Shown here piece by piece: positions 1 through 64,000 of a stretch of 64,000 bases of DNA. Positions within the stretch are counted from its first letter, which is position 1; every line of letters begins with the position of its first letter. A program made the position numbers and the translations under genes. Origin of the DNA: Rugalucina vietnamica (Eukaryota > Mollusca > Bivalvia > Lucinida > Lucinidae); NCBI GenBank assembly GCA_964017185.1, contig OZ024880.1, forward strand, positions 42,855,071 to 42,919,070. Reading direction: 5' to 3'. Under the pieces are notes generated by a model. That model did no database searches. It had not been told where the DNA came from and saw nothing but the letters and a program-made list of their open reading frames with translations.

Positions 1-88
1 ACAAATTCAAAAACTCAAATACAAATACATACTGCACTCAACAGGGGAAAGTTTATTTTACAAAATTTTGATACAAAATCAAAAAAAG
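1..88. other. AT-rich flank outside the satellite array
   Basis: This stretch is rich in A and in ACAAAT/CAAAA words and shows no match to the 177-bp monomer. Satellite sequence starts at about 89 with GGCCATTTTCA, directly after a run of seven A residues. I see no gene, promoter or TE end here. It is the only sequence in the window outside both arrays and the insert, so it probably marks the true left edge of the array, although a longer insertion truncated by the window cannot be excluded. Confidence 0.7.
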
Positions 89-356
89 GCCATTTTCAGA
101 TAGCTTTGAAACTATGGGCCATTTTCAAGTTAGCAGTACGTATAGTCAGAGAGCTTTGAAACTAATGAAATAGTACGTATAGTCAGAGAGTTTTGAAACT
201 AATGAAATTTGGGTCAAACTTAGGACTGGTCAGGACCTTGAAACAGGGCAAGTTTAAAGAAAATCGTTCGCTCAGTTTTCGAGATATCGAAGTTCGAAAT
301 AGCCGACCCCATACCCAATATGGGCAGTATGGGCCATATTCAAGTTAGCAGATCGT
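89..356 (+). repeat. Decayed edge monomers of the satellite
   Basis: Three truncated pieces of the monomer are joined out of register. One runs from about 89 to 113 (GGCCATTTTCA, then a piece beginning TAGCTTTGAAACTATGGG). The second runs from about 116 to 171 and ends within ATGAAAT. The third restarts at about 171 with AGTACGTATAGTCAGAGAG. Regular 177-bp spacing is established by about 330. The pieces carry TATAGTCAGAGAG, whereas almost every interior monomer of this array reads TATAGCACAGAG. Broken, out-of-phase, variant-rich monomers are typical of the edge of a tandem array, where unequal exchange does not homogenise copies. Confidence 0.85.
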
Positions 357-26000: not shown

Positions 26001-26943
26001 AAGTTAGCAGTACGTATAGCACAGAGTTTTGAAACTAATGAAATTTGAGTCAAACTTAGGACTGGTCAGGACCTTGAAACTAAGCAAGTTTAAAGAAAAT
26101 CGTTCGCTCAGTTTTCGAGATATCGAAGTTCGAAATAGCCGACCCCATACCCAATATGGGCAGTATGGGCCATTTTCAAGTTAGCAGTACGTATAGCACA
26201 TAGTTTTGAAACTAATGAAATTTGGGTCAAACTTAGGACTGGTCAGGACCTTGAAACAGGGCAAGTTTAAAGAAAATCGTTCGCTCAGTTTTTGAGATAT
26301 CGAAGTTCGAAATAGCCGACCCCATACCAAATATGGGCAGTATGGGCCATTTTCAAGTTAGCAGTACGTATAGCACAGAGTTTTGAAACTAATGAAATTT
26401 GGGTCAAACTTAGGACTGGTCAGGACCTTGAAACTGGGCAAGTTTAAAGAAAATCGTTCGCTCAGTTTTTGAGATATCGAAGTTCGAAATAGCCGACCCC
26501 ATACCCAATATGGGCAGTATGGGCCATTTTCAAGTTAGCAGTACGTATAGCACAGAGTTTTGAAACTAATGAAATTTGGGTCAAACTTAGGACTGGTCAG
26601 GACCTTGAAACTGGGCAAGTTTAAAGAAAATCGTTTGCTCAGTTTTCGAGATATCGAAGTTCGAAATAGCCGACCCCATACCCAATATGGGCAGTATGGG
26701 CCATTTTCAAGTTAGCATTACGTATAGCACAGAGTTTTGAAACTAATGAAATTTGGGTCAAACTTAGGACTGGTCAGGACCTTGAAACTGGGCAAGTTTA
26801 AAGAAAATCGTTCGCTCAGTTTTCGAGATATCGAAGTTCGATATAGCCGACCCCATACCCAATATGGGCAGTATGGGCCATTTTCAAGTTAGCAGTACGT
26901 ATAGCACAGAGTTTTGAAACTAATGAAATTTGGGTCAAACTTA
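23071..26943 (+). repeat. Tandem 13-monomer (2,301-bp) block, second copy short by one monomer
   Basis: Shared rare variants are 2,301 bp apart: GAAACAGAGCAAG at 23071 and 25372, ATTTGGGACA at 23211 and 25512, GCTCACTTTTTGAG at 23451 and 25752, and AACTAAGCAAG near 23781 and 26082. The next shared marker, TTAGCATTACG, lies at 24591 and 26715, only 2,124 bp apart, so the second copy has lost one 177-bp monomer between about 26082 and 26715. The second copy runs into the transposon insertion at 26944. Confidence 0.8.
26941..26943. repeat. Target-site duplication TTA, left copy
   Basis: Left flank reads CAAACTTA and the right flank at 29323 reads TTAGGACTGG. An uninterrupted monomer reads CAAACTTAGGACTGG. 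Removing the insert plus one TTA restores the monomer exactly, so TTA was duplicated on insertion. Confidence 0.9.
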
Positions 26944-26982
26944 TGCCTAGGTCACACTAGCAATTACGTACGCTGCGGATAG
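26944..26982 (+). repeat. Left terminal inverted repeat
   Basis: 39 bp beginning TGCCTAGGTCACACTAGC and ending TACGCTGCGGATAG. It pairs with the reverse complement of 29275-29322 with a few substitutions (CACACTAGCAATT against CACATTAGCACTT) and lacks a 9-bp GTCACTGCG segment present in the right copy. The outer 13 bp are identical at both ends. Confidence 0.9.
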
Positions 26983-27060
26983 TTGTGGATACTAAACGTA
27001 ACAATCCGCAGGAATTAGTGGGCGGGGCTAACTGTTTTTAATGAATTTACTTAATTATAA

Positions 27061-27470
27061 TTACCTTTAAATACGGATTCATACGGTATAGTTGCGGATA
27101 TATTCGGATACATACGGAAAGTAACTTGTCTACATACCTTTCGATACCATCTGTTACGTTTAGACACGGACATGCACCTTCAGATACGCATTTGTTACGC
27201 TTTCTTGCGTATAAAACGCTGCAATGTGATGCAACTACTCGCTGTTTATTGTCAAAGTACAGTCACACTAGCACATACGGATACGACGGACGCTACGGAC
27301 ATGTCATACGTATCTATCCGTTATATCCGTAACAATTCGCATCGTATACGTATATGACCGTAGCTGTACGTGTTGTATCCGCAGGGTCCGTAGAATCCGC
27401 GCACAAATTTTGAAAAAAGTCAAACTTTCGATACGGACGAAACATCCGTATCTGCACGTGAAGAAATTGT
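27061..27470. repeat. Left subterminal cluster of TACGG/CCGTA words
   Basis: About ten TACGG or CCGTA words in both orientations (ATACGGATAC, CTACGGAC, TATCCGTAAC, GATACGGACG and others) occur in roughly 400 bp, mirrored by a similar cluster at the right end. Dense short subterminal repeats next to terminal inverted repeats are known transposase-binding regions in several DNA transposon families; that role here is inference. A short open frame at 27126-27332 lies in this tract and I do not consider it a gene. Confidence 0.65.
27262..27273 (+). repeat. Internal copy of the terminal-repeat core
   Basis: GTCACACTAGCA here is identical to 26951-26962 inside the left terminal repeat, in the same orientation, 311 bp further in. 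It is followed by CATACGGATACG, in the style of the subterminal repeats. It may be a relic of an older terminus or of a tandem or nested relative of the same element. Confidence 0.6.
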
Positions 27471-27484
27471 AGAACATAATATGC

Positions 27485-27745
27485 TTTGATTGATTGTTTG
27501 TTTGATCAATTGGTCGGTCGATTGATTGCTCGATCGCGATCGATCTCTCGGTCGATCGATAGACTGATTGATCATGATCGATCAATTGATTGATCGAGTG
27601 AAAGTTCGAGTGATCGATCAAGACCGATCGGCTGATAGATCGATTGAGTGATCGTTCTTTCGATCATCGAGTGATTGATCGATGCGATCGATCGATTGAT
27701 TGAATCTTGACGGATATGTCGAGTGATTGATCAATCGAGTGATAG
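27485..27745. repeat. Degenerate GATC/GATT tetranucleotide tract
   Basis: About 260 bp composed mostly of GATT, GATC, GGTC and GAGT tetranucleotides (TCGATCGCGATCGATC, GATCGATCGATTGATTG and similar). GATC is self-complementary, so many overlapping short palindromes exist. Minus-strand open frames through this tract (27304-27621 and 27618-27821) are rich in Ser, Asp, Ile, Arg and Gln because they translate the tetranucleotide; they are not protein genes. Confidence 0.85.
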
Positions 27746-27807
27746 TCGTAAAACAATTTCTCATAAAACTATAATTTGAGTAACATTTGTGTGTTTGCTT
27801 TTCCGTT
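27746..27807. other. Short spacer between GATC tract and palindromic element
   Basis: About 60 bp of unremarkable AT-rich sequence. I see no recognisable motif, gene or repeat. Confidence 0.5.
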
Positions 27808-27915
27808 CCCAGCAGGCACATGACGTCACAATGACGTCAGATCGACGTCGATGCGACGTCATGACGTCGCATCGACGTTGATATGACGTCATTCTTACTT
27901 CATGTGCCCGATGGG
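27808..27915. mobile_element. 108-bp palindromic element rich in TGACGTCA/GACGTC
   Basis: The whole segment is symmetric about the 27861/27862 axis. Its ends are CCCAGCAGGCACATG and the reverse complement of CCCATCGGGCACATG. The central 24 bp (27850-27873) are a perfect palindrome, and the arms continue outward with few mismatches. It contains repeated GACGTC and TGACGTCA. This looks like a miniature inverted-repeat or foldback element nested in the larger transposon. TGACGTCA is also the CREB/ATF site, but here it follows from the palindrome, so I do not call a promoter. I cannot define a target duplication with confidence. Confidence 0.75.
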
Positions 27916-28008
27916 TTTGTTGGTTCTCCATGTTTTCTTAGATATTGCAGCCTGCTTCTCAACTATTGAAAGCAATGCAAAATCTCCTTCTGAGGAATCC
28001 GTATTTTT
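27916..28008. other. Spacer between two nested elements
   Basis: About 90 bp with no gene, motif or repeat that I recognise. Confidence 0.5.
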
Positions 28009-28106
28009 AGCTCACCTGAGCCGTAGGCTCACAAGGTGAGCTTATGGGATGGCAATGCTCCGTCCGTCGTCCGTCGTCGTCCGTCGTGGTCGTCCGTCCA
28101 CAATTT

Positions 28107-28398
28107 CAAAGATCTTCTCCTCTGAAACCGCTTTGTCAATCAAAGCCAAACTTCATATGGAGCATCCTTGGGAAGGTCGAAAGGAAGTTTATACAAGTGG
28201 TCATGGTCACATGACCAAGATGGCTGCCATGGCTATAAATAGAAAAAAAACTTTAAAAATCTTCTTCTCCAGAACCAGAAGGCCAATGATTTTGAAACTT
28301 GGTGTGAAGCATCAGGGAATAGAGCTCTACAAAGTTTATATAAATCATGTCCCTGGGATGACCATGACCTATTTTACGGCAAGGTCAACATAGGTCGC
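28107..28398 (+). repeat. Body unit A of the bivalve-type repeat
   Basis: About 292 bp from CAAAGATCTTCTCC to ATAGGTCGC. It aligns along its length with unit B starting 432 bp downstream, sharing ATCAAAGCCAAACTT, TATGGAGCAT, CCATGGCTATAAATAG, CCAGAACCAGAAGGCC, GAGCTCTACAAAGTTTATAT and GACCTATTTTA. A TATA-like TATAAATA is at 28234-28241. Confidence 0.8.
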
Positions 28399-28538
28399 TC
28401 ATGCATTTGAATGGGGAAAAGTGTTAAAATGTCATTTGTAGGAAAAAACTTGTAGGAAATGGGAAAATGGACTTCAGATTGATGATTCTGAAAAAATTTG
28501 GACCCCGGGGCAATATACATGTATATTACAGTGATATT
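28399..28538. other. Linker between body units A and B
   Basis: About 140 bp without similarity to either unit. It contains a perfect 16-bp palindrome AATATACATGTATATT at 28512-28527. Nothing else recognisable. Confidence 0.55.
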
Positions 28539-28832
28539 CAAAGATCTTCTTCTCTGAAACTGCTTGGCTAATCAAAGCCAAACTTTATATGGAGCATTGT
28601 TAGGAAGTGGGAATGAAAGTGTATGTAAATGGTCAAGGTCACATGTCCAAGATGGCCGCCATGGCTATAAATAGTAAAAACTTAAAAAAAAAATCTTCTT
28701 TTCCAGAACCAGAAGGCCTATGTTTTTGAAACTAAGCATGAAGCATCAGGAAGAGGAGCTCTACAAAGTTTATATAAATCATGACCCTGGGATGACCTTG
28801 ACCTATTTTATGGCAAGGTCAGCTGAGGTCGC
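28539..28832 (+). repeat. Body unit B of the bivalve-type repeat
   Basis: About 294 bp, a diverged direct copy of unit A. It carries TATAAATA at 28666-28673, directly after AAGATGGCCGCCATGGC. Two exact TCAAGGTCA words occur in opposite orientations, at 28633-28641 (plus) and 28793-28801 (minus, read as TGACCTTGA). TCAAGGTCA is the known half-site of ERR and NR5A nuclear receptors; whether it functions here is unknown. In unit A the equivalent positions read TCATGGTCA and TGACCATGA. Confidence 0.8.
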
Positions 28833-28855
28833 ATATCCCAGATCTCAGGTGAGCC

Positions 28856-29080
28856 TTTACAGGACCATTTGTCCTCTGGTTGTTAGTTATTCGTACTGGC
28901 TAAAGGAATGCATTGAAAGCACGAGCACATTTGTGAGCATTTGGACGCACGGGCGATTCAGTGAGTAAGCTGTATACTTTTCGTCACATAACTGTTCGCC
29001 GACAAAGACCGTAACCGAACAAAATAGCACATATGAAACAGTATCGATCCGCAACAAATGCTTACGATAAGATACGTTTA
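28856..29080. other. Unclassified interior of the transposon
   Basis: About 225 bp between the bivalve-type repeat and the right subterminal region. I see no gene, known motif or repeat. Confidence 0.5.
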
Positions 29081-29274
29081 GTTACGGAATAGATACGGTT
29101 TTCGATACCGATTAGATACGGACAATTACGGGTTTTTCATCCGTTTCTGATTTTTGACAATTCTCAAAGCTTAGCTGCGGATCTTCCGTGCCCTGAAAAT
29201 AATGCACGTACAGATACAGACTTTTACGGATATGATACGAATCGTTACGGACAGGACGGACAAATACGGAAGCC
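29081..29274. repeat. Right subterminal cluster of TACGG/CCGTA words
   Basis: Repeated TACGGA-type words (ATACGGACAATTACGGG, TTTTACGGATATG, GTTACGGAC, AATACGGAAG) fill the last ~200 bp before the right terminal repeat and mirror the left cluster in composition. I read it as the paired subterminal region of the same transposon. Confidence 0.65.
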
Positions 29275-29322
29275 CTATCCGCAGCGTACGCAGTGACCGT
29301 AAGTGCTAATGTGACCTAGGCA
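29275..29322 (-). repeat. Right terminal inverted repeat
   Basis: 48 bp ending in TGTGACCTAGGCA. On the reverse strand it reads TGCCTAGGTCACATTAGC, continues through TTACG, then a 9-bp GTCACTGCG absent from the left repeat, then TACGCTGCGGATAG. The pairing defines this end of the element to the base. Confidence 0.9.
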
Positions 29323-29325
29323 TTA
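29323..29325. repeat. Target-site duplication TTA, right copy
   Basis: TTA directly abuts the right terminal repeat and continues as TTAGGACTGG, the normal monomer sequence. Confidence 0.9.
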
Positions 29326-29864
29326 GGACTGGTCAGGACCTTGAAACTGGGCAAGTTTAAAGAAAATCGTTCGCTCAGTTTTTGAGATATCGAAGTTCGA
29401 AATAGCCGACCCCATACCCAATATGGGCAGTATGGGCCATTTTCAAGTTAGCAGTACGTATAGCACAGAGTTTTGAAACTAATGAAATTTAGGTCAAACT
29501 TAGGACTGGTCAGGACCTTGAAACTGGGTTATTTTAAAGAAAATCGTTCGCTCAGTTTTTGAGATATCGAAGTTCGAAATAGCCGACCCCATACCCAATA
29601 TGAACAGTATGGGCCATTTTCAAGTTAGCAGTACGTATAGTCAGAGAGTTTTGAAACTAATGAAATTTGGGTCAAACTTAGGACTGGTCAGGACCTTGAA
29701 ACTGGGCAAGTTTAAAGAAAATCGTTCGCTCAGTTTTCGAGATATCGAAGTTCGAAATAGCCGACCCCATACCCAATATGGGCAGTATGGGCCATTTTCA
29801 AGTTAGCAGTACGTATAGTCAGAGAGTTTTGAAACTAATGAAATTTGGGTCAAACTTAGGACTG
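29326..29864 (+). repeat. Subfamily L array resumed after the insertion
   Basis: About three plus-oriented monomers continue the phase broken at 26943. The first resumes at GGACTGGTCAGG. The next still has TATAGCACAGAG, but the last two carry TATAGTCAGAGAG (about 29635 and 29814), the form also found at the far left edge. Other irregularities are TTTAGGTC, GGGTTATTTTAAAG and ATATGAACAG. The last monomer breaks off at TTAGGACTG. An open frame at 29600-29806 is a product of the repeat. Confidence 0.9.
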
Positions 29865-29920
29865 AAAATGAAAATGGACTGACTGACTGACTGACTGGAC
29901 TGACTTTCAGGACTGACTGA
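29861..29920. repeat. GACT microsatellite at the inversion junction
   Basis: The plus monomer ends in TTAGGACTGAAAATG and passes into a broken run of GACT/ACTG tetranucleotides (29877-29920, with a TTTCAG interruption), which leads straight into CTTGAAAATGGCCC, a monomer in the opposite orientation. The seed is plausibly the GGACTG already present in the monomer, expanded by slippage or added during end joining. Confidence 0.85.
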
Positions 29921-31336
29921 CTTGAAAATGGCCCATACTGCCCATATTCGGTATGGGGTCGGCTATCTCGAACACCGATATCTCAAAAACTGAGCGAACG
30001 ATTTTCTTTAAACTCGCCCAGTTTCAAGGTCCTGACCAGTCCTAAGCTTGACCAAAATTTCATTTGTTTCAAAACTCTCTGACTATACGTACTGCTAACT
30101 TGAAAATGGCCCATACTGTCCTTATTGGGTATGGGGTCGGCTATCTCGAACACCGATATCTCGAAAACTGAGCGAACGATTTTCTTTAAACTCGCCCAGT
30201 TACAAGGTCCTGACCAGTCCTAAGTTTGACCAAAATTTCATTAGTTTCAAAACTCTCTAATATGCGTACTGCTAACTTGAAAATGGCCCATACTGCCCAT
30301 ACTGGGTATGGCGTAGGCTATCTCGAACACCGATATCTCGAAAACTGAGCGAACGATTTTCTTTTAACTCGCCCAGTTTCAAGGTACTGACCAGTCCTAA
30401 GATTGACCAAAATTTCATTTGTTTCAAAACTCTCTGACTATACGTACTGGTAACTTGAAAATGGCCCATACTGTCCATATTCGGTATGGGGTCGGCTATC
30501 TCGAACACCGATATCTCGAAAACTGAGCGAACGATTTTCTTTAAACTCGCCCAGTTTCAAGGTCCTGACCAGTCCTAAGTTTGACCCAAATTTCATTAGT
30601 TTCAAAACTCTCTAATATGCATACTGCTCACTTGAAAATGGCCCATAATGCCCATATTGGGTATGGCGTCGGCTATCTCGAACACCGATATCTCGAAAAC
30701 TGAGCGAACGATTTTCTTTAAACTCGCCCAGTTTCAAGGTCCTGACTAGTCCTAAGTTTTGACCAAAATTTCATTAGTTTCAAAACTCTCTGACTATACG
30801 TACTGCTAAATTGAAAATGGTCCATACTGTCCATATTGGGTATGGGGTCGGCTATCTCGAACACCGATATCTCAAAAACTGAGCGAACGATTCTCTTTAA
30901 ACTCGCCCAGTTTCAAGGTCCTGACCAGTCCTAAGTTTGACCAAAATTTCATTAGTTTCAAAACTCTGTGCTATACGCACTGCTAACTTGAAAATGGCCC
31001 ATACTGTCCATATTCGGTATGGGGTCGGCTATCTCGAACACCGATATCTCAAAAACTGAACGAACGATTTTCTTTAAACTCGCCCAGTTTTAAGGTCCTG
31101 ACCAGTCCTAAGTTTGACGAAAATTTCATTTGTTTCAAAACTCTCTAATATGCGTACTGCTAACTTGAAAATGGCCCATACTGTCCATATTCGGTATGGG
31201 GTCGGCTATCTCGAACACCGATATCTCGAAAACTGAGCGAACGATTTTCTTTAAACTCGCCCAGTTTCAAGGTCCTGACCAGTCCTAAGTTTGACCAAAA
31301 TTTCATTTGTTTCAAAACTCTCTAATATGCGTACTG
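29921..31336 (-). repeat. Diverged junction-proximal monomers of the R array
   Basis: The first eight or so monomers carry many private changes (GTCCTTATTGGG, AATATGCATACTGCTCAC, TAAGTTTTGACC, GTGCTATACGCACTGC, GTTACAAGG) and do not show the clean four-monomer order seen further right. This matches decay at an array edge, here at the inversion junction rather than at unique DNA. Confidence 0.75.
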
Positions 31337-49049: not shown

Positions 49050-52000
49050 CTAACTTGAAAATGACCCATACTGCCCATATTGGGTATGGCGTCGGCTATC
49101 TCGAACACCGATATCACGAAAACTGAGCGAACGATTTTCTTTAAACTCGCCCAGTTTCAAGGTCCTGACCAGTCCTAAGTTTGACCAAAATTTCATTAGT
49201 TTCAAAACTCTCTGACTATACGTACTGCTAACTTGAAAATGGCCCATACCGTCCATATTCGGTATGGGGTCGGCTAACTCGAACACCGATATCTCAAAAA
49301 CTGAGCGAACGATTTTCTTTAAACTCGCCCAGTTTTAAGGTCCTGACCAGTCCTAAGTTTGACCAAAATTTCATTTGTTTCAAAACTCTCTAATATGCGT
49401 ACTGCTAACTTGAAAATGACCCATACTGCCCATATTGGGTATGGCGTCGGCTATCTCGAACACCGATATCACGAAAACTGAGCGAACGATTTTCTTTAAA
49501 CTCGCCCAGTTTCAAGGTCCTGACCAGTCCTAAGTTTGACCAAAATTTCATTAGTTTCAAAACTCTCTGACTATACGTACTGCTAACTTGAAAATGGCCC
49601 ATACTGTCCATATTCGGTATGGGGTCGGCTATCTCGAACACCGATATCTCGAAAACTGAGCGAACGATTTTCTTTAAACTCGCCCAGTTTCAAGGTCCTG
49701 ACCAGTCCTAAGTTTGACCAAAATTTCATTTGTTTCAAAACTCTCTAATATGCGTACTGCTAACTTGAAAATGGCCCATACTGCCCATATTGGGTATGGC
49801 GTCGGCTATCTCGAACACCGATATCTCGAAAACTGAGCGAACGATTTTCTTTAAACTCGCCCAGTTTCAAGGTCCTGACCAGTCCTAAGTTTGACCAAAA
49901 TTTCATTTGTTTCAAAACTCTCTAATATGCGTACTGCTAACTTGAATATGGCCCATACTGTCCATATTCGGTATGGGGTCGGCTATCTCGAACACCGATA
50001 TCTCGAAAACTGAGCGAACGATTTTCTTGAAACTCGCCCAGTTTCAAGGTCCTGACCAGTCCTAAGTTTGACCAAAATTTCATTAGTTTCAAAACTCTCT
50101 GACTATACGTACTGCTAACTTGAAAATGGCCCATACCGTCCATATTCGGTATGGGGTCGGCTAACTCGAACACCGATATCTCAAAAACTGAGCGAACGAT
50201 TTTCTTTAAACTCGCCCAGTTTTAAGGTCCTGACCAGTCCTAAGTTTGACCAAAATTTCATTGGTTTCAAAACTCTCTAATATGCGTACTGCTAACTTGA
50301 AAATGGCCCATACTGCCCATATTGGGTATGGCGTCGGCTATCTCGAACACCGATATCTCGAAAACTGAGCGAACGATTTTCTTTAAACTCGCCCAGTTTC
50401 AAGGTCCTGACCAGTCCTAAGTTTGACCAAAATTTCATTTGTTTCAAAACTCCCTAATATGCGTACTGCTAACTTGAAAATGGCCCATACTGTCCATATT
50501 CGGTATGGGGTCGGCTATCTCGAACACCGATATCTCGAAAACTGAGCGAACGATTTTCTTTAAACTCGCCCAGTTTCAAGGTACTGACCAGTCCTAAGTT
50601 TGACCAAAATTTCATTTGTTTCAAAACTCTCTAATATGCGTACTGCTAACTTGAAAATGGCCCATACTGCCCATATTGGGTATGGCGTCGGCTATCTCGA
50701 ACACCGATATCACGAAAACTGAGCGAACGATTTTCTTTAAACTCGCCCAGTTTCAAGGTCCTGACCAGTCCTAAGTTTGACCAAAATTTCATTAGTTTCA
50801 AAACTCTCTGACTATACGTACTGCTAACTTGAAAATGGCCCATACCGTCCATATTCGGTATGGGGTCGGCTAACTCGAACACCGATATCTCAAAATCTGA
50901 GCGAACGATTTTCTTTAAACTCGCCCAGTTTTAAGGTCCTGACCAGTCCTAAGTTTGACCAAAATTTCATTGGTTTCAAAACTCTCTAATATGCGTACTG
51001 CTAACTTGAAAATGGCCCATACTGCCCATATTGGGTATGGCGTCGGCTATCTCGAACACCGATATCTCGAAAACTGAGCGAACGATTTTCTTTAAACTCG
51101 CCCAGTTTCAAGGTCCTGACCAGTCCTAAGTTTGACCAAAATTTCATTTGTTTCAAAACTCCCTAATATGCGTACTGCTAACTTGAAAATGGCCCATACT
51201 GTCCATATTCGGTATGGGGTCGGCTATCTCGAACACCGATATCTCGAAAACTGAGCGAACGATTTTCTTTAAACTCGCCCAGTTTCAAGGTACTGACCAG
51301 TCCTAAGTTTGACCAAAATTTCATTTGTTTCAAAACTCTCTAATATGCGTACTGCTAACTTGAAAATGGCCCATACTGCCCATATTGGGTATGGCGTCGG
51401 CTATCTCGAACACCGATATCACGAAAACTGAGCGAACGATTTTCTTTAAACTCGCCCAGTTTCAAGGTCCTGACCAGTCCTAAGTTTGACCAAAATTTCA
51501 TTAGTTTCAAAACTCTCTGACTATACGTACTGCTAACTTGAAAATGGCCCATACCGTCCATATTCGGTATGGGGTCGGCTAACTCGAACACCGATATCTC
51601 AAAATCTGAGCGAACGATTTTCTTTAAACTCGCCCAGTTTTAAGGTCCTGACCAGTCCTAAGTTTGACCAAAATTTCATTGGTTTCAAAACTCTCTAATA
51701 TGCGTACTGCTAACTTGAAAATGGCCCATACTGCCCATATTGGGTATGGCGTCGGCTATCTCGAACACCGATATCTCGAAAACTGAGCGAACGATTTTCT
51801 TTAAACTCGCCCAGTTTCAAGGTCCTGACCAGTCCTAAGTTTGACCAAAATTTCATTTGTTTCAAAACTCCCTAATATGCGTACTGCTAACTTGAAAATG
51901 GCCCATACTGTCCATATTCGGTATGGGGTCGGCTATCTCGAACACCGATATCTCGAAAACTGAGCGAACGATTTTCTTTAAACTCGCCCAGTTTCAAGGT

Positions 52001-53481
52001 ACTGACCAGTCCTAAGTTTGACCAAAATTTCATTTGTTTCAAAACTCTCTAATATGCGTACTGCTAACTTGAAAATGGCCCATACTGCCCATATTGGGTA
52101 TGGCGTCGGCTATCTCGAACACCGATATCACGAAAACTGAGCGAACGATTTTCTTTAAACTCGCCCAGTTTCAAGGTCCTGACCAGTCCTAAGTTTGACC
52201 AAAATTTCGTTAGTTTCAAAACTCTCTGACTATACGTACTGCTAACTTGAAAATGGCCCATACTGTCCATATTCGGTATGGGGTCGGCTATCTCGAACAC
52301 CGATATCTCGAAAACTGAGCGAACGATTTTCTTTAAACTCGCCCAGTTTCAAGGTCCTGACCAGTCCTAAGTTTGACCAAAATTTCATTTGTTTCAAAAC
52401 TCTCTAATATGCGTACTGCTAACTTGAAAATGGCCCATACTGCCCATATTGGGTATGGCGTCGGCTATCTCGAACACCGATATCTCGAAAACTGAGCGAA
52501 CGATTTTCTTTAAACTCGCCCAGTTTCAAGGTCCTGACCAGTCCTAAGTTTGACCAAAATTTCATTTGTTTCAAAACTCTCTAATATGCGTACTGCTAAC
52601 TTGAATATGGCCCATACTGTCCATATTCGGTATGGGGTCGGCTATCTCGAACACCGATATCTCGAAAACTGAGCGAACGATTTTCTTTAAACTCGCCCAG
52701 TTTCAAGGTCCTGACCAGTCCTAAGTTTGACCAAAATTTCATTTGTTTCAAAACACTCTAATATGCGAACTGCTAACTTGAAAATGGCCCATACTGTCCA
52801 TATTGGGTATGGCGTCGGCTATCTCGAACACCGATATCACGAAAACTGAGCGAACGATTTTCTTTAAACTCGCCCAGTTTCAAGGTCCTGACCAGTCCTA
52901 AGTTTGACCAAAATTTCATTAGTTTCAAAACTCTCTGACTATACGTACTGCTAACTTGAAAATGGCCCATACCGTCCATATTCGGTATGGGGTCGGCTAA
53001 CTCGAACACCGATATCTCAAAAACTGAGCGAACGATTTTCTTTAAACTCGCCCAGTTTTAAGGTCCTGACCAGTCCTAAGTTTGACCAAAATTTCATTGG
53101 TTTCAAAACTCTCTAATATGCGTACTGCTAACTTGAAAATGGCCCATACTGCCCATATTGGGTATGGCGTCGGCTATCTCGAACACCGATATCTCGAAAA
53201 CTGAGCGAACGATTTTCTTTAAACTCGCCCAGTTTCAAGGTCCTGACCAGTCCTAAGTTTGACCAAAATTTCATTTGTTTCAAAACTCCCTAATATGCGT
53301 ACTGCTAACTTGAAAATGGCCCATACTGTCCATATTCGGTATGGGGTCGGCTATCTCGAACACCGATATCTCGAAAACTGAGCGAACGATTTTCTTTAAA
53401 CTCGCCCAGTTTCAAGGTACTGACCAGTCCTAAGTTTGACCAAAATTTCATTTGTTTCAAAACTCTCTAATATGCGTACTG
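49050..53481 (-). repeat. Super-repeat copy 1, 4,432 bp (25 monomers)
   Basis: Defined by the order of marked monomers: two AAAATGACCC monomers at 49050 and 49405, a CTTGAAACTCG monomer near 50029, two CAAAATCTGAG monomers near 50890 and 51600, AAATTTCGTTAG at 52203 and ATGCGAACTGC near 52763. The start point is arbitrary. The same order recurs exactly 4,432 bp later; I found no difference at the markers I compared. The segment 44618-49049 is a more diverged relative at the same spacing (its CGTTAG marker is at 47771). Confidence 0.85.
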
Positions 53482-56400
53482 CTAACTTGAAAATGACCCA
53501 TACTGCCCATATTGGGTATGGCGTCGGCTATCTCGAACACCGATATCACGAAAACTGAGCGAACGATTTTCTTTAAACTCGCCCAGTTTCAAGGTCCTGA
53601 CCAGTCCTAAGTTTGACCAAAATTTCATTAGTTTCAAAACTCTCTGACTATACGTACTGCTAACTTGAAAATGGCCCATACCGTCCATATTCGGTATGGG
53701 GTCGGCTAACTCGAACACCGATATCTCAAAAACTGAGCGAACGATTTTCTTTAAACTCGCCCAGTTTTAAGGTCCTGACCAGTCCTAAGTTTGACCAAAA
53801 TTTCATTTGTTTCAAAACTCTCTAATATGCGTACTGCTAACTTGAAAATGACCCATACTGCCCATATTGGGTATGGCGTCGGCTATCTCGAACACCGATA
53901 TCACGAAAACTGAGCGAACGATTTTCTTTAAACTCGCCCAGTTTCAAGGTCCTGACCAGTCCTAAGTTTGACCAAAATTTCATTAGTTTCAAAACTCTCT
54001 GACTATACGTACTGCTAACTTGAAAATGGCCCATACTGTCCATATTCGGTATGGGGTCGGCTATCTCGAACACCGATATCTCGAAAACTGAGCGAACGAT
54101 TTTCTTTAAACTCGCCCAGTTTCAAGGTCCTGACCAGTCCTAAGTTTGACCAAAATTTCATTTGTTTCAAAACTCTCTAATATGCGTACTGCTAACTTGA
54201 AAATGGCCCATACTGCCCATATTGGGTATGGCGTCGGCTATCTCGAACACCGATATCTCGAAAACTGAGCGAACGATTTTCTTTAAACTCGCCCAGTTTC
54301 AAGGTCCTGACCAGTCCTAAGTTTGACCAAAATTTCATTTGTTTCAAAACTCTCTAATATGCGTACTGCTAACTTGAATATGGCCCATACTGTCCATATT
54401 CGGTATGGGGTCGGCTATCTCGAACACCGATATCTCGAAAACTGAGCGAACGATTTTCTTGAAACTCGCCCAGTTTCAAGGTCCTGACCAGTCCTAAGTT
54501 TGACCAAAATTTCATTAGTTTCAAAACTCTCTGACTATACGTACTGCTAACTTGAAAATGGCCCATACCGTCCATATTCGGTATGGGGTCGGCTAACTCG
54601 AACACCGATATCTCAAAAACTGAGCGAACGATTTTCTTTAAACTCGCCCAGTTTTAAGGTCCTGACCAGTCCTAAGTTTGACCAAAATTTCATTGGTTTC
54701 AAAACTCTCTAATATGCGTACTGCTAACTTGAAAATGGCCCATACTGCCCATATTGGGTATGGCGTCGGCTATCTCGAACACCGATATCTCGAAAACTGA
54801 GCGAACGATTTTCTTTAAACTCGCCCAGTTTCAAGGTCCTGACCAGTCCTAAGTTTGACCAAAATTTCATTTGTTTCAAAACTCCCTAATATGCGTACTG
54901 CTAACTTGAAAATGGCCCATACTGTCCATATTCGGTATGGGGTCGGCTATCTCGAACACCGATATCTCGAAAACTGAGCGAACGATTTTCTTTAAACTCG
55001 CCCAGTTTCAAGGTACTGACCAGTCCTAAGTTTGACCAAAATTTCATTTGTTTCAAAACTCTCTAATATGCGTACTGCTAACTTGAAAATGGCCCATACT
55101 GCCCATATTGGGTATGGCGTCGGCTATCTCGAACACCGATATCACGAAAACTGAGCGAACGATTTTCTTTAAACTCGCCCAGTTTCAAGGTCCTGACCAG
55201 TCCTAAGTTTGACCAAAATTTCATTAGTTTCAAAACTCTCTGACTATACGTACTGCTAACTTGAAAATGGCCCATACCGTCCATATTCGGTATGGGGTCG
55301 GCTAACTCGAACACCGATATCTCAAAATCTGAGCGAACGATTTTCTTTAAACTCGCCCAGTTTTAAGGTCCTGACCAGTCCTAAGTTTGACCAAAATTTC
55401 ATTGGTTTCAAAACTCTCTAATATGCGTACTGCTAACTTGAAAATGGCCCATACTGCCCATATTGGGTATGGCGTCGGCTATCTCGAACACCGATATCTC
55501 GAAAACTGAGCGAACGATTTTCTTTAAACTCGCCCAGTTTCAAGGTCCTGACCAGTCCTAAGTTTGACCAAAATTTCATTTGTTTCAAAACTCCCTAATA
55601 TGCGTACTGCTAACTTGAAAATGGCCCATACTGTCCATATTCGGTATGGGGTCGGCTATCTCGAACACCGATATCTCGAAAACTGAGCGAACGATTTTCT
55701 TTAAACTCGCCCAGTTTCAAGGTACTGACCAGTCCTAAGTTTGACCAAAATTTCATTTGTTTCAAAACTCTCTAATATGCGTACTGCTAACTTGAAAATG
55801 GCCCATACTGCCCATATTGGGTATGGCGTCGGCTATCTCGAACACCGATATCACGAAAACTGAGCGAACGATTTTCTTTAAACTCGCCCAGTTTCAAGGT
55901 CCTGACCAGTCCTAAGTTTGACCAAAATTTCATTAGTTTCAAAACTCTCTGACTATACGTACTGCTAACTTGAAAATGGCCCATACCGTCCATATTCGGT
56001 ATGGGGTCGGCTAACTCGAACACCGATATCTCAAAATCTGAGCGAACGATTTTCTTTAAACTCGCCCAGTTTTAAGGTCCTGACCAGTCCTAAGTTTGAC
56101 CAAAATTTCATTGGTTTCAAAACTCTCTAATATGCGTACTGCTAACTTGAAAATGGCCCATACTGCCCATATTGGGTATGGCGTCGGCTATCTCGAACAC
56201 CGATATCTCGAAAACTGAGCGAACGATTTTCTTTAAACTCGCCCAGTTTCAAGGTCCTGACCAGTCCTAAGTTTGACCAAAATTTCATTTGTTTCAAAAC
56301 TCCCTAATATGCGTACTGCTAACTTGAAAATGGCCCATACTGTCCATATTCGGTATGGGGTCGGCTATCTCGAACACCGATATCTCGAAAACTGAGCGAA

Positions 56401-57913
56401 CGATTTTCTTTAAACTCGCCCAGTTTCAAGGTACTGACCAGTCCTAAGTTTGACCAAAATTTCATTTGTTTCAAAACTCTCTAATATGCGTACTGCTAAC
56501 TTGAAAATGGCCCATACTGCCCATATTGGGTATGGCGTCGGCTATCTCGAACACCGATATCACGAAAACTGAGCGAACGATTTTCTTTAAACTCGCCCAG
56601 TTTCAAGGTCCTGACCAGTCCTAAGTTTGACCAAAATTTCGTTAGTTTCAAAACTCTCTGACTATACGTACTGCTAACTTGAAAATGGCCCATACTGTCC
56701 ATATTCGGTATGGGGTCGGCTATCTCGAACACCGATATCTCGAAAACTGAGCGAACGATTTTCTTTAAACTCGCCCAGTTTCAAGGTCCTGACCAGTCCT
56801 AAGTTTGACCAAAATTTCATTTGTTTCAAAACTCTCTAATATGCGTACTGCTAACTTGAAAATGGCCCATACTGCCCATATTGGGTATGGCGTCGGCTAT
56901 CTCGAACACCGATATCTCGAAAACTGAGCGAACGATTTTCTTTAAACTCGCCCAGTTTCAAGGTCCTGACCAGTCCTAAGTTTGACCAAAATTTCATTTG
57001 TTTCAAAACTCTCTAATATGCGTACTGCTAACTTGAATATGGCCCATACTGTCCATATTCGGTATGGGGTCGGCTATCTCGAACACCGATATCTCGAAAA
57101 CTGAGCGAACGATTTTCTTTAAACTCGCCCAGTTTCAAGGTCCTGACCAGTCCTAAGTTTGACCAAAATTTCATTTGTTTCAAAACACTCTAATATGCGA
57201 ACTGCTAACTTGAAAATGGCCCATACTGTCCATATTGGGTATGGCGTCGGCTATCTCGAACACCGATATCACGAAAACTGAGCGAACGATTTTCTTTAAA
57301 CTCGCCCAGTTTCAAGGTCCTGACCAGTCCTAAGTTTGACCAAAATTTCATTAGTTTCAAAACTCTCTGACTATACGTACTGCTAACTTGAAAATGGCCC
57401 ATACCGTCCATATTCGGTATGGGGTCGGCTAACTCGAACACCGATATCTCAAAAACTGAGCGAACGATTTTCTTTAAACTCGCCCAGTTTTAAGGTCCTG
57501 ACCAGTCCTAAGTTTGACCAAAATTTCATTGGTTTCAAAACTCTCTAATATGCGTACTGCTAACTTGAAAATGGCCCATACTGCCCATATTGGGTATGGC
57601 GTCGGCTATCTCGAACACCGATATCTCGAAAACTGAGCGAACGATTTTCTTTAAACTCGCCCAGTTTCAAGGTCCTGACCAGTCCTAAGTTTGACCAAAA
57701 TTTCATTTGTTTCAAAACTCCCTAATATGCGTACTGCTAACTTGAAAATGGCCCATACTGTCCATATTCGGTATGGGGTCGGCTATCTCGAACACCGATA
57801 TCTCGAAAACTGAGCGAACGATTTTCTTTAAACTCGCCCAGTTTCAAGGTACTGACCAGTCCTAAGTTTGACCAAAATTTCATTTGTTTCAAAACTCTCT
57901 AATATGCGTACTG
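53482..57913 (-). repeat. Super-repeat copy 2, 4,432 bp (25 monomers)
   Basis: All markers of copy 1 recur at +4,432: the AAAATGACCC pair at 53482 and 53837, CTTGAAACTCG near 54461, CAAAATCTGAG near 55322 and 56032, CGTTAG at 56635 and GCGAACTGC near 57195. As in copy 1, the CTTGAAACTCG monomer is joined directly to CATTAGTTTC-GACTATACG, which indicates the loss of one monomer relative to copies 3 and 4. Confidence 0.85.
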
Positions 57914-60900
57914 CTAACTTGAAAATGACCCATACTGCCCATATTGGGTATGGCGTCGGCTATCTCGAACACCGATATCACGAAAACTGAGCGAACGATT
58001 TTCTTTAAACTCGCCCAGTTTCAAGGTCCTGACCAGTCCTAAGTTTGACCAAAATTTCATTAGTTTCAAAACTCTCTGACTATACGTACTGCTAACTTGA
58101 AAATGGCCCATACCGTCCATATTCGGTATGGGGTCGGCTAACTCGAACACCGATATCTCAAAAACTGAGCGAACGATTTTCTTTAAACTCGCCCAGTTTT
58201 AAGGTCCTGACCAGTCCTAAGTTTGACCAAAATTTCATTTGTTTCAAAACTCTCTAATATGCGTACTGCTAACTTGAAAATGACCCATACTGCCCATATT
58301 GGGTATGGCGTCGGCTATCTCGAACACCGATATCACGAAAACTGAGCGAACGATTTTCTTTAAACTCGCCCAGTTTCAAGGTCCTGACCAGTCCTAAGTT
58401 TGACCAAAATTTCATTAGTTTCAAAACTCTCTGACTATACGTACTGCTAACTTGAAAATGGCCCATACTGTCCATATTCGGTATGGGGTCGGCTATCTCG
58501 AACACCGATATCTCGAAAACTGAGCGAACGATTTTCTTTAAACTCGCCCAGTTTCAAGGTCCTGACCAGTCCTAAGTTTGACCAAAATTTCATTTGTTTC
58601 AAAACTCTCTAATATGCGTACTGCTAACTTGAAAATGGCCCATACTGCCCATATTGGGTATGGCGTCGGCTATCTCGAACACCGATATCTCGAAAACTGA
58701 GCGAACGATTTTCTTTAAACTCGCCCAGTTTCAAGGTCCTGACCAGTCCTAAGTTTGACCAAAATTTCATTTGTTTCAAAACTCTCTAATATGCGTACTG
58801 CTAACTTGAATATGGCCCATACTGTCCATATTCGGTATGGGGTCGGCTATCTCGAACACCGATATCTCGAAAACTGAGCGAACGATTTTCTTGAAACTCG
58901 CCCAGTTTCAAGGTCCTGACCAGTCCTAAGTTTGACCAAAATTTCATTTGTTTCAAAACACTCTAATATGCGTACTGCTAACTTGAAAATGGCCCATACT
59001 GTCCATATTGGGTATGGCGTCGGCTATCTCGAACACCGATATCACGAAAACTGAGCGAACGATTTTCTTTAAACTCGCCCAGTTTCAAGGTCCTGACCAG
59101 TCCTAAGTTTGACCAAAATTTCATTAGTTTCAAAACTCTCTGACTATACGTACTGCTAACTTGAAAATGGCCCATACCGTCCATATTCGGTATGGGGTCG
59201 GCTAACTCGAACACCGATATCTCAAAAACTGAGCGAACGATTTTCTTTAAACTCGCCCAGTTTTAAGGTCCTGACCAGTCCTAAGTTTGACCAAAATTTC
59301 ATTGGTTTCAAAACTCTCTAATATGCGTACTGCTAACTTGAAAATGGCCCATACTGCCCATATTGGGTATGGCGTCGGCTATCTCGAACACCGATATCTC
59401 GAAAACTGAGCGAACGATTTTCTTTAAACTCGCCCAGTTTCAAGGTCCTGACCAGTCCTAAGTTTGACCAAAATTTCATTTGTTTCAAAACTCCCTAATA
59501 TGCGTACTGCTAACTTGAAAATGGCCCATACTGTCCATATTCGGTATGGGGTCGGCTATCTCGAACACCGATATCTCGAAAACTGAGCGAACGATTTTCT
59601 TTAAACTCGCCCAGTTTCAAGGTACTGACCAGTCCTAAGTTTGACCAAAATTTCATTTGTTTCAAAACTCTCTAATATGCGTACTGCTAACTTGAAAATG
59701 GCCCATACTGCCCATATTGGGTATGGCGTCGGCTATCTCGAACACCGATATCACGAAAACTGAGCGAACGATTTTCTTTAAACTCGCCCAGTTTCAAGGT
59801 CCTGACCAGTCCTAAGTTTGACCAAAATTTCATTAGTTTCAAAACTCTCTGACTATACGTACTGCTAACTTGAAAATGGCCCATACCGTCCATATTCGGT
59901 ATGGGGTCGGCTAACTCGAACACCGATATCTCAAAATCTGAGCGAACGATTTTCTTTAAACTCGCCCAGTTTTAAGGTCCTGACCAGTCCTAAGTTTGAC
60001 CAAAATTTCATTGGTTTCAAAACTCTCTAATATGCGTACTGCTAACTTGAAAATGGCCCATACTGCCCATATTGGGTATGGCGTCGGCTATCTCGAACAC
60101 CGATATCTCGAAAACTGAGCGAACGATTTTCTTTAAACTCGCCCAGTTTCAAGGTCCTGACCAGTCCTAAGTTTGACCAAAATTTCATTTGTTTCAAAAC
60201 TCCCTAATATGCGTACTGCTAACTTGAAAATGGCCCATACTGTCCATATTCGGTATGGGGTCGGCTATCTCGAACACCGATATCTCGAAAACTGAGCGAA
60301 CGATTTTCTTTAAACTCGCCCAGTTTCAAGGTACTGACCAGTCCTAAGTTTGACCAAAATTTCATTTGTTTCAAAACTCTCTAATATGCGTACTGCTAAC
60401 TTGAAAATGGCCCATACTGCCCATATTGGGTATGGCGTCGGCTATCTCGAACACCGATATCACGAAAACTGAGCGAACGATTTTCTTTAAACTCGCCCAG
60501 TTTCAAGGTCCTGACCAGTCCTAAGTTTGACCAAAATTTCATTAGTTTCAAAACTCTCTGACTATACGTACTGCTAACTTGAAAATGGCCCATACCGTCC
60601 ATATTCGGTATGGGGTCGGCTAACTCGAACACCGATATCTCAAAATCTGAGCGAACGATTTTCTTTAAACTCGCCCAGTTTTAAGGTCCTGACCAGTCCT
60701 AAGTTTGACCAAAATTTCATTGGTTTCAAAACTCTCTAATATGCGTACTGCTAACTTGAAAATGGCCCATACTGCCCATATTGGGTATGGCGTCGGCTAT
60801 CTCGAACACCGATATCTCGAAAACTGAGCGAACGATTTTCTTTAAACTCGCCCAGTTTCAAGGTCCTGACCAGTCCTAAGTTTGACCAAAATTTCATTTG

Positions 60901-62522
60901 TTTCAAAACTCCCTAATATGCGTACTGCTAACTTGAAAATGGCCCATACTGTCCATATTCGGTATGGGGTCGGCTATCTCGAACACCGATATCTCGAAAA
61001 CTGAGCGAACGATTTTCTTTAAACTCGCCCAGTTTCAAGGTACTGACCAGTCCTAAGTTTGACCAAAATTTCATTTGTTTCAAAACTCTCTAATATGCGT
61101 ACTGCTAACTTGAAAATGGCCCATACTGCCCATATTGGGTATGGCGTCGGCTATCTCGAACACCGATATCACGAAAACTGAGCGAACGATTTTCTTTAAA
61201 CTCGCCCAGTTTCAAGGTCCTGACCAGTCCTAAGTTTGACCAAAATTTCGTTAGTTTCAAAACTCTCTGACTATACGTACTGCTAACTTGAAAATGGCCC
61301 ATACTGTCCATATTCGGTATGGGGTCGGCTATCTCGAACACCGATATCTCGAAAACTGAGCGAACGATTTTCTTTAAACTCGCCCAGTTTCAAGGTCCTG
61401 ACCAGTCCTAAGTTTGACCAAAATTTCATTTGTTTCAAAACTCTCTAATATGCGTACTGCTAACTTGAAAATGGCCCATACTGCCCATATTGGGTATGGC
61501 GTCGGCTATCTCGAACACCGATATCTCGAAAACTGAGCGAACGATTTTCTTTAAACTCGCCCAGTTTCAAGGTCCTGACCAGTCCTAAGTTTGACCAAAA
61601 TTTCATTTGTTTCAAAACTCTCTAATATGCGTACTGCTAACTTGAATATGGCCCATACTGTCCATATTCGGTATGGGGTCGGCTATCTCGAACACCGATA
61701 TCTCGAAAACTGAGCGAACGATTTTCTTTAAACTCGCCCAGTTTCAAGGTCCTGACCAGTCCTAAGTTTGACCAAAATTTCATTTGTTTCAAAACACTCT
61801 AATATGCGAACTGCTAACTTGAAAATGGCCCATACTGTCCATATTGGGTATGGCGTCGGCTATCTCGAACACCGATATCACGAAAACTGAGCGAACGATT
61901 TTCTTTAAACTCGCCCAGTTTCAAGGTCCTGACCAGTCCTAAGTTTGACCAAAATTTCATTAGTTTCAAAACTCTCTGACTATACGTACTGCTAACTTGA
62001 AAATGGCCCATACCGTCCATATTCGGTATGGGGTCGGCTAACTCGAACACCGATATCTCAAAAACTGAGCGAACGATTTTCTTTAAACTCGCCCAGTTTT
62101 AAGGTCCTGACCAGTCCTAAGTTTGACCAAAATTTCATTGGTTTCAAAACTCTCTAATATGCGTACTGCTAACTTGAAAATGGCCCATACTGCCCATATT
62201 GGGTATGGCGTCGGCTATCTCGAACACCGATATCTCGAAAACTGAGCGAACGATTTTCTTTAAACTCGCCCAGTTTCAAGGTCCTGACCAGTCCTAAGTT
62301 TGACCAAAATTTCATTTGTTTCAAAACTCCCTAATATGCGTACTGCTAACTTGAAAATGGCCCATACTGTCCATATTCGGTATGGGGTCGGCTATCTCGA
62401 ACACCGATATCTCGAAAACTGAGCGAACGATTTTCTTTAAACTCGCCCAGTTTCAAGGTACTGACCAGTCCTAAGTTTGACCAAAATTTCATTTGTTTCA
62501 AAACTCTCTAATATGCGTACTG
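57914..62522 (-). repeat. Super-repeat copy 3, 4,609 bp (26 monomers)
   Basis: Same markers as copies 1 and 2, but one extra 177-bp monomer lies after the CTTGAAACTCG monomer near 58891. It has CAAAACACTCTAATATGCG, GTCCATATTGGG and GATATCACG features. Total length is 4,609 bp, that is 4,432 plus 177. The extra monomer resembles those at equivalent points near 61800 and 57190, so this copy probably shows the undeleted form. Confidence 0.85.
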
Positions 62523-64000
62523 CTAACTTGAAAATGGCCCATACTGCCCATATTGGGTATGGCGTCGGCTATCTCGAACACCGATATCACGAAAACTGAG
62601 CGAACGATTTTCTTTAAACTCGCCCAGTTTCAAGGTCCTGACCAGTCCTAAGTTTGACCAAAATTTCATTAGTTTCAAAACTCTCTGACTATACGTACTG
62701 CTAACTTGAAAATGGCCCATACCGTCCATATTCGGTATGGGGTCGGCTAACTCGAACACCGATATCTCAAAAACTGAGCGAACGATTTTCTTTAAACTCG
62801 CCCAGTTTTAAGGTCCTGACCAGTCCTAAGTTTGACCAAAATTTCATTTGTTTCAAAACTCTCTAATATGCGTACTGCTAACTTGAAAATGACCCATACT
62901 GCCCATATTGGGTATGGCGTCGGCTATCTCGAACACCGATATCACGAAAACTGAGCGAACGATTTTCTTTAAACTCGCCCAGTTTCAAGGTCCTGACCAG
63001 TCCTAAGTTTGACCAAAATTTCATTAGTTTCAAAACTCTCTGACTATACGTACTGCTAACTTGAAAATGGCCCATACTGTCCATATTCGGTATGGGGTCG
63101 GCTATCTCGAACACCGATATCTCGAAAACTGAGCGAACGATTTTCTTTAAACTCGCCCAGTTTCAAGGTCCTGACCAGTCCTAAGTTTGACCAAAATTTC
63201 ATTTGTTTCAAAACTCTCTAATATGCGTACTGCTAACTTGAAAATGGCCCATACTGCCCATATTGGGTATGGCGTCGGCTATCTCGAACACCGATATCTC
63301 GAAAACTGAGCGAACGATTTTCTTTAAACTCGCCCAGTTTCAAGGTCCTGACCAGTCCTAAGTTTGACCAAAATTTCATTTGTTTCAAAACTCTCTAATA
63401 TGCGTACTGCTAACTTGAATATGGCCCATACTGTCCATATTCGGTATGGGGTCGGCTATCTCGAACACCGATATCTCGAAAACTGAGCGAACGATTTTCT
63501 TGAAACTCGCCCAGTTTCAAGGTCCTGACCAGTCCTAAGTTTGACCAAAATTTCATTTGTTTCAAAACACTCTAATATGCGTACTGCTAACTTGAAAATG
63601 GCCCATACTGTCCATATTGGGTATGGCGTCGGCTATCTCGAACACCGATATCACGAAAACTGAGCGAACGATTTTCTTTAAACTCGCCCAGTTTCAAGGT
63701 CCTGACCAGTCCTAAGTTTGACCAAAATTTCATTAGTTTCAAAACTCTCTGACTATACGTACTGCTAACTTGAAAATGGCCCATACCGTCCATATTCGGT
63801 ATGGGGTCGGCTAACTCGAACACCGATATCTCAAAAACTGAGCGAACGATTTTCTTTAAACTCGCCCAGTTTTAAGGTCCTGACCAGTCCTAAGTTTGAC
63901 CAAAATTTCATTGGTTTCAAAACTCTCTAATATGCGTACTGCTAACTTGAAAATGGCCCATACTGCCCATATTGGGTATGGCGTCGGCTATCTCGAACAC
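62523..64000 (-). repeat. Super-repeat copy 4, partial at window end
   Basis: Continues the same monomer order and has the longer form after CTTGAAACTCG (near 63500), as copy 3 does. Its first monomer reads AAAATGGCCC instead of the AAAATGACCC of copies 1 to 3, a visible difference. The repeat runs off the window. Confidence 0.8.

Follow-up and report, generated by a model that had tools for sequence, protein, structure and literature searches.

The point at which a 177-bp satellite reverses its orientation in the window (the whole stretch of DNA analysed, 64 kb, C12:42855071-42919070) almost certainly marks the axis of a giant DNA transposon, present here in one copy. The element is of the foldback type, with a build like that of Tetris from Drosophila virilis and a far larger size, and its copies inserted separately, with target-site duplications of 9 bp. 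The difference between the left (L) and right (R) satellite subfamilies that meet at the axis is a property of the transposon's two arms, not of the window locus.

Results

Structure of the junction

Profile matches and the tandem repeat finder showed that the window consists almost entirely of the 177-bp satellite. The + array terminates inside a monomer at 29864 (end ..CAAACTTAGGACTG), a GACT-rich linker of exactly 55 bp follows at 29865-29919, and the - array of the second subfamily opens at 29920 (ACTTGAAAATGGCCC). An earlier note on this DNA had described the same arrangement, with a stop of the + array in mid-monomer at about 29864, about 55 bp of GACT-type repeat and a restart in minus orientation, and all three observations held. 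The features of the window are as follows.

1-110, + strand: inner edge of the non-satellite left end, common to other copies, then unrelated flanks
111-26940, + strand: L satellite arm, built of 177-bp monomers and directed from the left end inward (profile matches, tandem repeat finder)
26944-29322, no strand given: separate later insertion into the L arm (sequence; inverted arms)
29326-29864, + strand: final three L monomers plus part of a fourth, adjoining the axis; two with the R-like TCAGAGAG
29865-29919, no strand given: 55-bp GACT-rich linker, which we read as the axis of the foldback element; the 101 bp at 29845-29945 are found at 7 loci
29920-64000, - strand: R satellite arm, running on past the window (right terminus C12:42954645)
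49177-62650, - strand: section of the R arm where 25-26 monomers make up a higher-order unit (4,432 and 4,609 bp)

The L words had also been said to stop, and the R words to start, at the same place, and word counts in the window bore this out, with no diagnostic word crossing the switch. The words GGGCAAG (149 on +, 0 on -) and GAAGTTCGAAATAG (152 on +, 0 on -) were confined to one strand, GGGCGAG (0 on +, 185 on -) and GGTGTTCGAGATAG (0 on +, 160 on -) to the other, and GACTGACTGACT to the linker. A patchwork (template-switch) origin of the linker is not claimed, because the coverage of the 55 bp by array words was not clearly above that of shuffled sequences: among 300 shuffles each, coverage as high was reached by 12 for 6-mers, 98 for 7-mers, 127 for 8-mers, and 33 for 9-mers.

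Divergence of the two subfamilies

From 349 profile hits in the window, 345 monomers of at least 160 bases were aligned (4 short pieces were left out), and these gave 132 distinct rows as input for the tree. The L (154) and R (191) monomers formed the two sides of one branch (SH-aLRT 96), and none of 500 label shuffles was as clean as the observed L/R split. Fixed or nearly fixed differences between L and R lie at alignment columns 28, 68, 69, 76, 139, 142, and 167. This tree, with the 100 or more monomers per side that the earlier note had called for, thus resolved two clean clades split by orientation. The claim that the switch is no recent inversion inside one homogeneous array stands, and L and R are clean, long-separated clades.

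The R-like TCAGAGAG was found in two junction-adjoining L monomers (29503 and 29681), and this R-family state also occurs at the left edge of the L array. The L-like GCACAGAG was present in one R monomer near the junction (30933). Both old shared variation and short conversion tracts would fit these mixed states close to the axis.

Recurrence of the junction

We searched the window's own genome (1.09 Gb, 47 contigs), in which the repeat counts obtained are lower bounds, with a 101-bp junction query (window 29845-29945). The search gave 10 matches, of which 7 were full-length and lay on 7 contigs, and 3 were partial matches of about 45 bp each within one-directional arrays. Identity of the full-length matches was 100% on C12, C10, C9, and C4, 98% on C13, 96% on C15, and 92% on C16. 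Since the same junction lies at 7 loci on 7 contigs, it cannot stem from a local event or from an assembly chimera. A chimera at the orientation switch would be conceivable because satellite arrays are easily misassembled. However, the same linker at 7 loci and the exact 9-bp duplication at the outer ends of the window copy (described below) make this explanation vanishingly improbable.

Two further head-to-head points with other breakpoints were observed on C4, at 53.71 Mb (L007) and 9.47 Mb (L008). At both of them R-type monomers meet R-type monomers without a GACT linker.

Termini and target-site duplications

The edge between the L array and other DNA (window 1-135) had 31 matches in the genome. 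Twenty-two of them made up 11 inverted pairs, each on a single contig and separated by 24-97 kb; identity to window 1-135 was 97-100% for one member of a pair and 83-90% for its partner, and the remaining 9 were unpaired among the matches listed. When the flanks of four copies were aligned, the common sequence extended 2,224 bp to the left of the window and ended at the same base, with different flanks beyond it in all four. The left terminus of the window copy is at C12:42852847 and starts with ATGTATGTGAAGTAAGCAGTAGCAG; the other terminus, read inward, starts with ACCGGTAGGAAGTCAGCAGTAGCAG and lies at C12:42954645 in the window copy. The expected terminus was present in 15 of 16 left ends and in 15 of 16 right ends.

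Thirteen copies were tried and both termini were read in 12; in C15a the left terminus was absent from the stretch read, which holds other DNA. The 9-bp target-site duplication was exact in 10 of the 12 copies, including the window copy (CTGTGTCAA), matched at 8 of 9 positions in C13b, and showed a one-T indel in C10a (GCTTTACAG / GCTTTTACAG, 5 of 9 without a gap). As a control, 132 wrong pairings of left and right flanks averaged 2.97 matches out of 9, with a maximum of 6. The target-site duplications indicate that each array pair is one insertion. Several results count against the transposon reading, among them the lack of a transposase in the searches described below, the fact that the C10a duplication fits only when a one-base indel is allowed, and the finding of the junction itself in 7 copies only.

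The span from terminus to terminus ranged from 20,273 to 101,799 bp, so that all 12 copies with both termini read were at least 20 kb long, and the window copy was the longest. The window contains 64 kb of this 101,799-bp copy, and beyond it the R arm continued as unbroken satellite through the next 30 kb read. The non-satellite end is about 2.3 kb on the left and about 3 kb on the right (measured in copy C10a). The non-satellite left ends of four copies were 99.4-99.7% identical to each other; against the one right end compared they were 74-75% identical over all aligned columns, with matching blocks at 81-95%. The copies thus have the architecture of foldback elements, with long inverted ends that contain internal tandem repeats, arms in inverted orientation, and a target-site duplication of about 9 bp.

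The termini start with a microsatellite-like run of GCAGTAGCAGTA / TACTGCTAGCAGT words (L019, 7777-7920). These terminal words and the monomer have TAGCAGTA in common.

Comparison of arms between copies

Mean monomer identity between copies was 0.968-0.991 for the L arms (C12, C9, C10a, C4a, C13a, and C16) and 0.956-0.963 for the R arms (C12, C9, C4a, and C10a), against 0.916-0.922 for L versus R within one copy. Since the identity of the arm outweighs that of the locus, the L/R split arose before these copies spread. It also predates the insertion at the window locus and arrived there with the element. In six further copies, all 18 short probes followed one rule, with each type of monomer, L or R, directed inward from its own end. 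The L/R switch was bracketed by probes in 4 of these 6 copies; in C2 all 3 probes fell in L and in C10b all 3 fell in R, and the switch was not seen between probes.

One copy, on C9, has 23 L monomers in reverse within its L arm (L028, C9:21427632-21437631), which is an inversion inside the arm.

The earlier note had explained the switch by a joining of two arrays or by an old inversion at this point. Such an inversion or fusion of satellite arrays at the window locus, with each side then homogenised separately, would agree with the two clean clades and with the array being least homogeneous at the switch. Against it, the same breakpoints and linker recur at 7 loci on 7 contigs, the same L/R split is found in other copies, and inverted ends, with the duplication CTGTGTCAA at the outer ends of the window copy, enclose the entire block. 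We consider this explanation highly improbable; at the window locus it is refuted, and it survives only as the origin of the inverted arms of the ancestral element. Junction recurrence and target duplications together rule out local inversion, array fusion, and assembly chimera.

A further alternative, modelled on a proposal for Tribolium, is that the dyad is a structural satellite feature of (peri)centromeric heterochromatin which ectopic exchange carried between chromosomes and which was retained because of its symmetry. The parts of the Tribolium work considered here (PMC13081366) describe conserved inversion sites, with inverted subarrays tens of kilobases long, that resemble the arrangement in the window. 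However, several separate copies lie on each of the contigs C4, C10, and C13, which makes one-per-chromosome centromeres unlikely, and short target-site duplications at unrelated sites are not a product of ectopic exchange. There is very little probability left for a dyad of this kind.

Growth of the arms

In the R arm of the window, similarity was lowest among the axis-adjoining monomers (nearest neighbour 0.981 over the first 12); every window monomer from 49,177 onward had an exact twin. This higher-order region consists of 4-monomer repeats stacked into the units of 25-26 monomers, and one exact run in it measured 6,114 bp. Monomer types D, F, and H (126 monomers) occurred in the window copy only, with none among about 240 R monomers from six other copies, whose arms were sampled in part for this comparison. 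Types I, J, and K are common to other copies and were found here only at 31.1-40.9 kb, near the axis (15 of 15 monomers). The private types together with the shared types close to the axis favour arms that grew where they had inserted, in the direction away from the axis. Towards the core of the R arm, monomers were no less identical to their nearest counterparts in other copies, so the picture of growth in place is not favoured by that measure. The inverted arms may have diverged through lack of exchange, inside the ancestral element.

Within the L arm (172-26942) there were long exact duplications, the largest of them 2,466 bp at a lag of 21 monomers; regular higher-order repeats like those of the R arm were absent.

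The 2.38-kb insertion in the L arm (26944-29322) lies three monomers from the axis and has terminal inverted repeats (TGCCTAGGTCACA..). A TTA duplication flanks it (26941-26943 and 29323-29325), and its inverted arms (26940-26977 and 29289-29326) are 84% complementary. Inside it there is a nested stretch at 28013-28855 with the ends GCTCACCTGAG / CAGGTGAGC. The axis-adjoining 1.5 kb of the L array was unbroken in C9, C10a, C13a, C15a, and C16.

Sister family and terminal motif

The R terminus was found with up to 3 mismatches at 59 sites in the genome, compared with 0 for the reversed control. These terminus-like sites comprised 18 exact, 11 of the ACCGGTGGG type, 11 of the ACCGGTATG type, and 19 others. 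In one ACCGGTATG-type copy, of which 3.6 kb was read, a 179-bp satellite started about 0.9 kb inside (15.2 copies in 2.7 kb), and it is related to the 177-bp one (alignment score 157; 50 shuffles reached 69). Ends of the ACCGGTATG type also occurred in inverted pairs, 7 in number and 33-62 kb apart. Two copies of this sister family were read at both termini and measured 40.6 and 34.6 kb. Both carried exact 9-bp duplications (CTGGAATAA and TCTCTATGT), and each was bounded by ACCGGT on one side and ATGTATGTG on the other, as is the main element.

A relative with the ACCGGTGGG terminus was also observed (L097 and L099, C1:82451500-82461530). Its terminal 700-781 bp were 99-100% identical at five sites, so this relative too looks recently mobile. 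There was no satellite-profile match in the 4 kb of L097 scanned and no long frame in 10 kb of one copy (longest 102 aa).

The motif AAGTNAGCAGTA stands nine bases from the end, facing inward, in both termini of the main element and of the sister copies. In the L arm all 146 occurrences were on + (0 on -) and in the R arm all 182 were on - (0 on +), with 0 in 15.4 kb of DNA outside the element. The best 12-base match between the R terminus and the monomer was 11 of 12, with a maximum of 10 in shuffled monomers (8 of 100). On the analogy of Galileo, studied in work to which the Tetris paper refers (PMC4079207), we tentatively suggest that the AAGTNAGCAGTA copies could be transposase-binding sites. 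Given a copy in each monomer, arm growth would multiply these possible sites. Two results count against this idea: AAGTNAGCAGTA is among the less variable monomer windows and not the least (13 of 178 windows vary less), and the sister satellite had no exact AAGTNAGCAGTA, only the similar GAGTTAGCAGTA.

Search for a transposase and for related sequences

No frame of at least 120 aa was present in the window or in the left non-satellite end, the two parts scanned, and no transposase was found among the frames of the parts read or in a genome-wide search, which covered the MULE domain only. That search gave 59 MULE-domain matches (scored candidates, a lower bound), none of them within 575 kb of the 59 terminus-like sites; the nearest was at 575 kb. 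Mutator-like (MULE) elements have target duplications of 8-11 bp, mostly 9 bp, and a 9-bp duplication is compatible with both foldback and Mutator-like elements. The MULE-typical duplication was present in the main element and in 2 of 2 sister copies.

RNA families gave no match at gathering scores in the window, L019, or L098. The exact 24-mer had 0 matches in viral contigs, the exact 20-mer had 0 in bacterial and archaeal contigs, and the satellite words had 0 in open-licence PMC papers. Text searches of the open-licence PMC literature, outside which most subscription papers lie, turned up no account of satellite-armed foldback elements as large as this one.

Discussion

The copies share one order: left terminus, non-satellite end of about 2.3 kb, L arm (+), 55-bp linker, R arm (-), non-satellite end of about 3 kb, and right terminus. 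A transposase supplied in trans would recognise the termini and move this unit. At each locus, unequal exchange would then lengthen and homogenise the arms in the direction away from the axis; being inverted, the arms would hardly exchange across it.

The closest known build is that of Tetris, to which we liken the element by architecture alone. In the parts of PMC4079207 on which we draw, Tetris is described as a foldback transposon whose inverted ends have an outer flanking domain and inner tandem repeats of about 220 bp, with a non-coding middle, target duplications of 8-10 bp, and a transposase that was not found. Its repeats were amplified into satellite arrays, with long arrays of up to 66 repeats, its ends reach 1,735 bp, and three copies only are given there as structurally complete (PMC4079207). 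The element described here has in common with it the inverted ends with an outer domain and inner tandem repeats, the non-coding middle, the short target duplications, the amplification of repeats into satellite arrays, and the lack of a transposase among the sequences searched. Unlike Tetris as portrayed in those parts, it has 12 copies of 20-102 kb, hundreds of monomers, diverged arms, and higher-order repeats.

The macro-dyads of Tribolium madens, in the portions of PMC13081366 used here, consist of two inverted satellite subarrays of tens of kilobases with conserved inversion sites, and are presented as an architecture of multi-megabase (peri)centromeric regions. The main text of that paper (PMC13081366) makes no use of the word foldback. 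Inverted satellite subarrays that meet at a conserved inversion site are found in both cases; in contrast to what those portions describe, termini and target-site duplications bound each dyad here, and the sites are scattered.

In the Pacific oyster, satellite-like arrays have reportedly been found on Helentron elements, and the element described here is like them in that satellite-like repeats are dispersed on non-autonomous mobile elements. Helitron and Helentron elements are not known to have target-site duplications or terminal inverted repeats. Identity with them was rejected, as 9-bp duplications and inverted ends are present here.

A broader and rather doubtful reading is that this is a transposon lineage whose inverted ends have turned into satellite and still move as units of tens of kilobases. 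Each monomer would keep the inward-facing terminal motif, growth of an arm would amplify the array and multiply the transposase sites in a single process, and head-to-head dyads like those of Tribolium might be footprints of such elements and not centromere structure.

How one satellite spreads to many chromosomes is an old question. Because whole arrays, together with their switch, are bounded by termini and target duplications, spread by transposition can here be tested copy by copy. The element provides a concrete mechanism by which subfamilies come to lie in inverted pairs and inversion sites come to be shared, patterns that are otherwise read as inversions, fusions, or centromere structure. 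Its two inverted arms, present in many copies, are natural replicates for homogenisation within, and not across, an inversion point.
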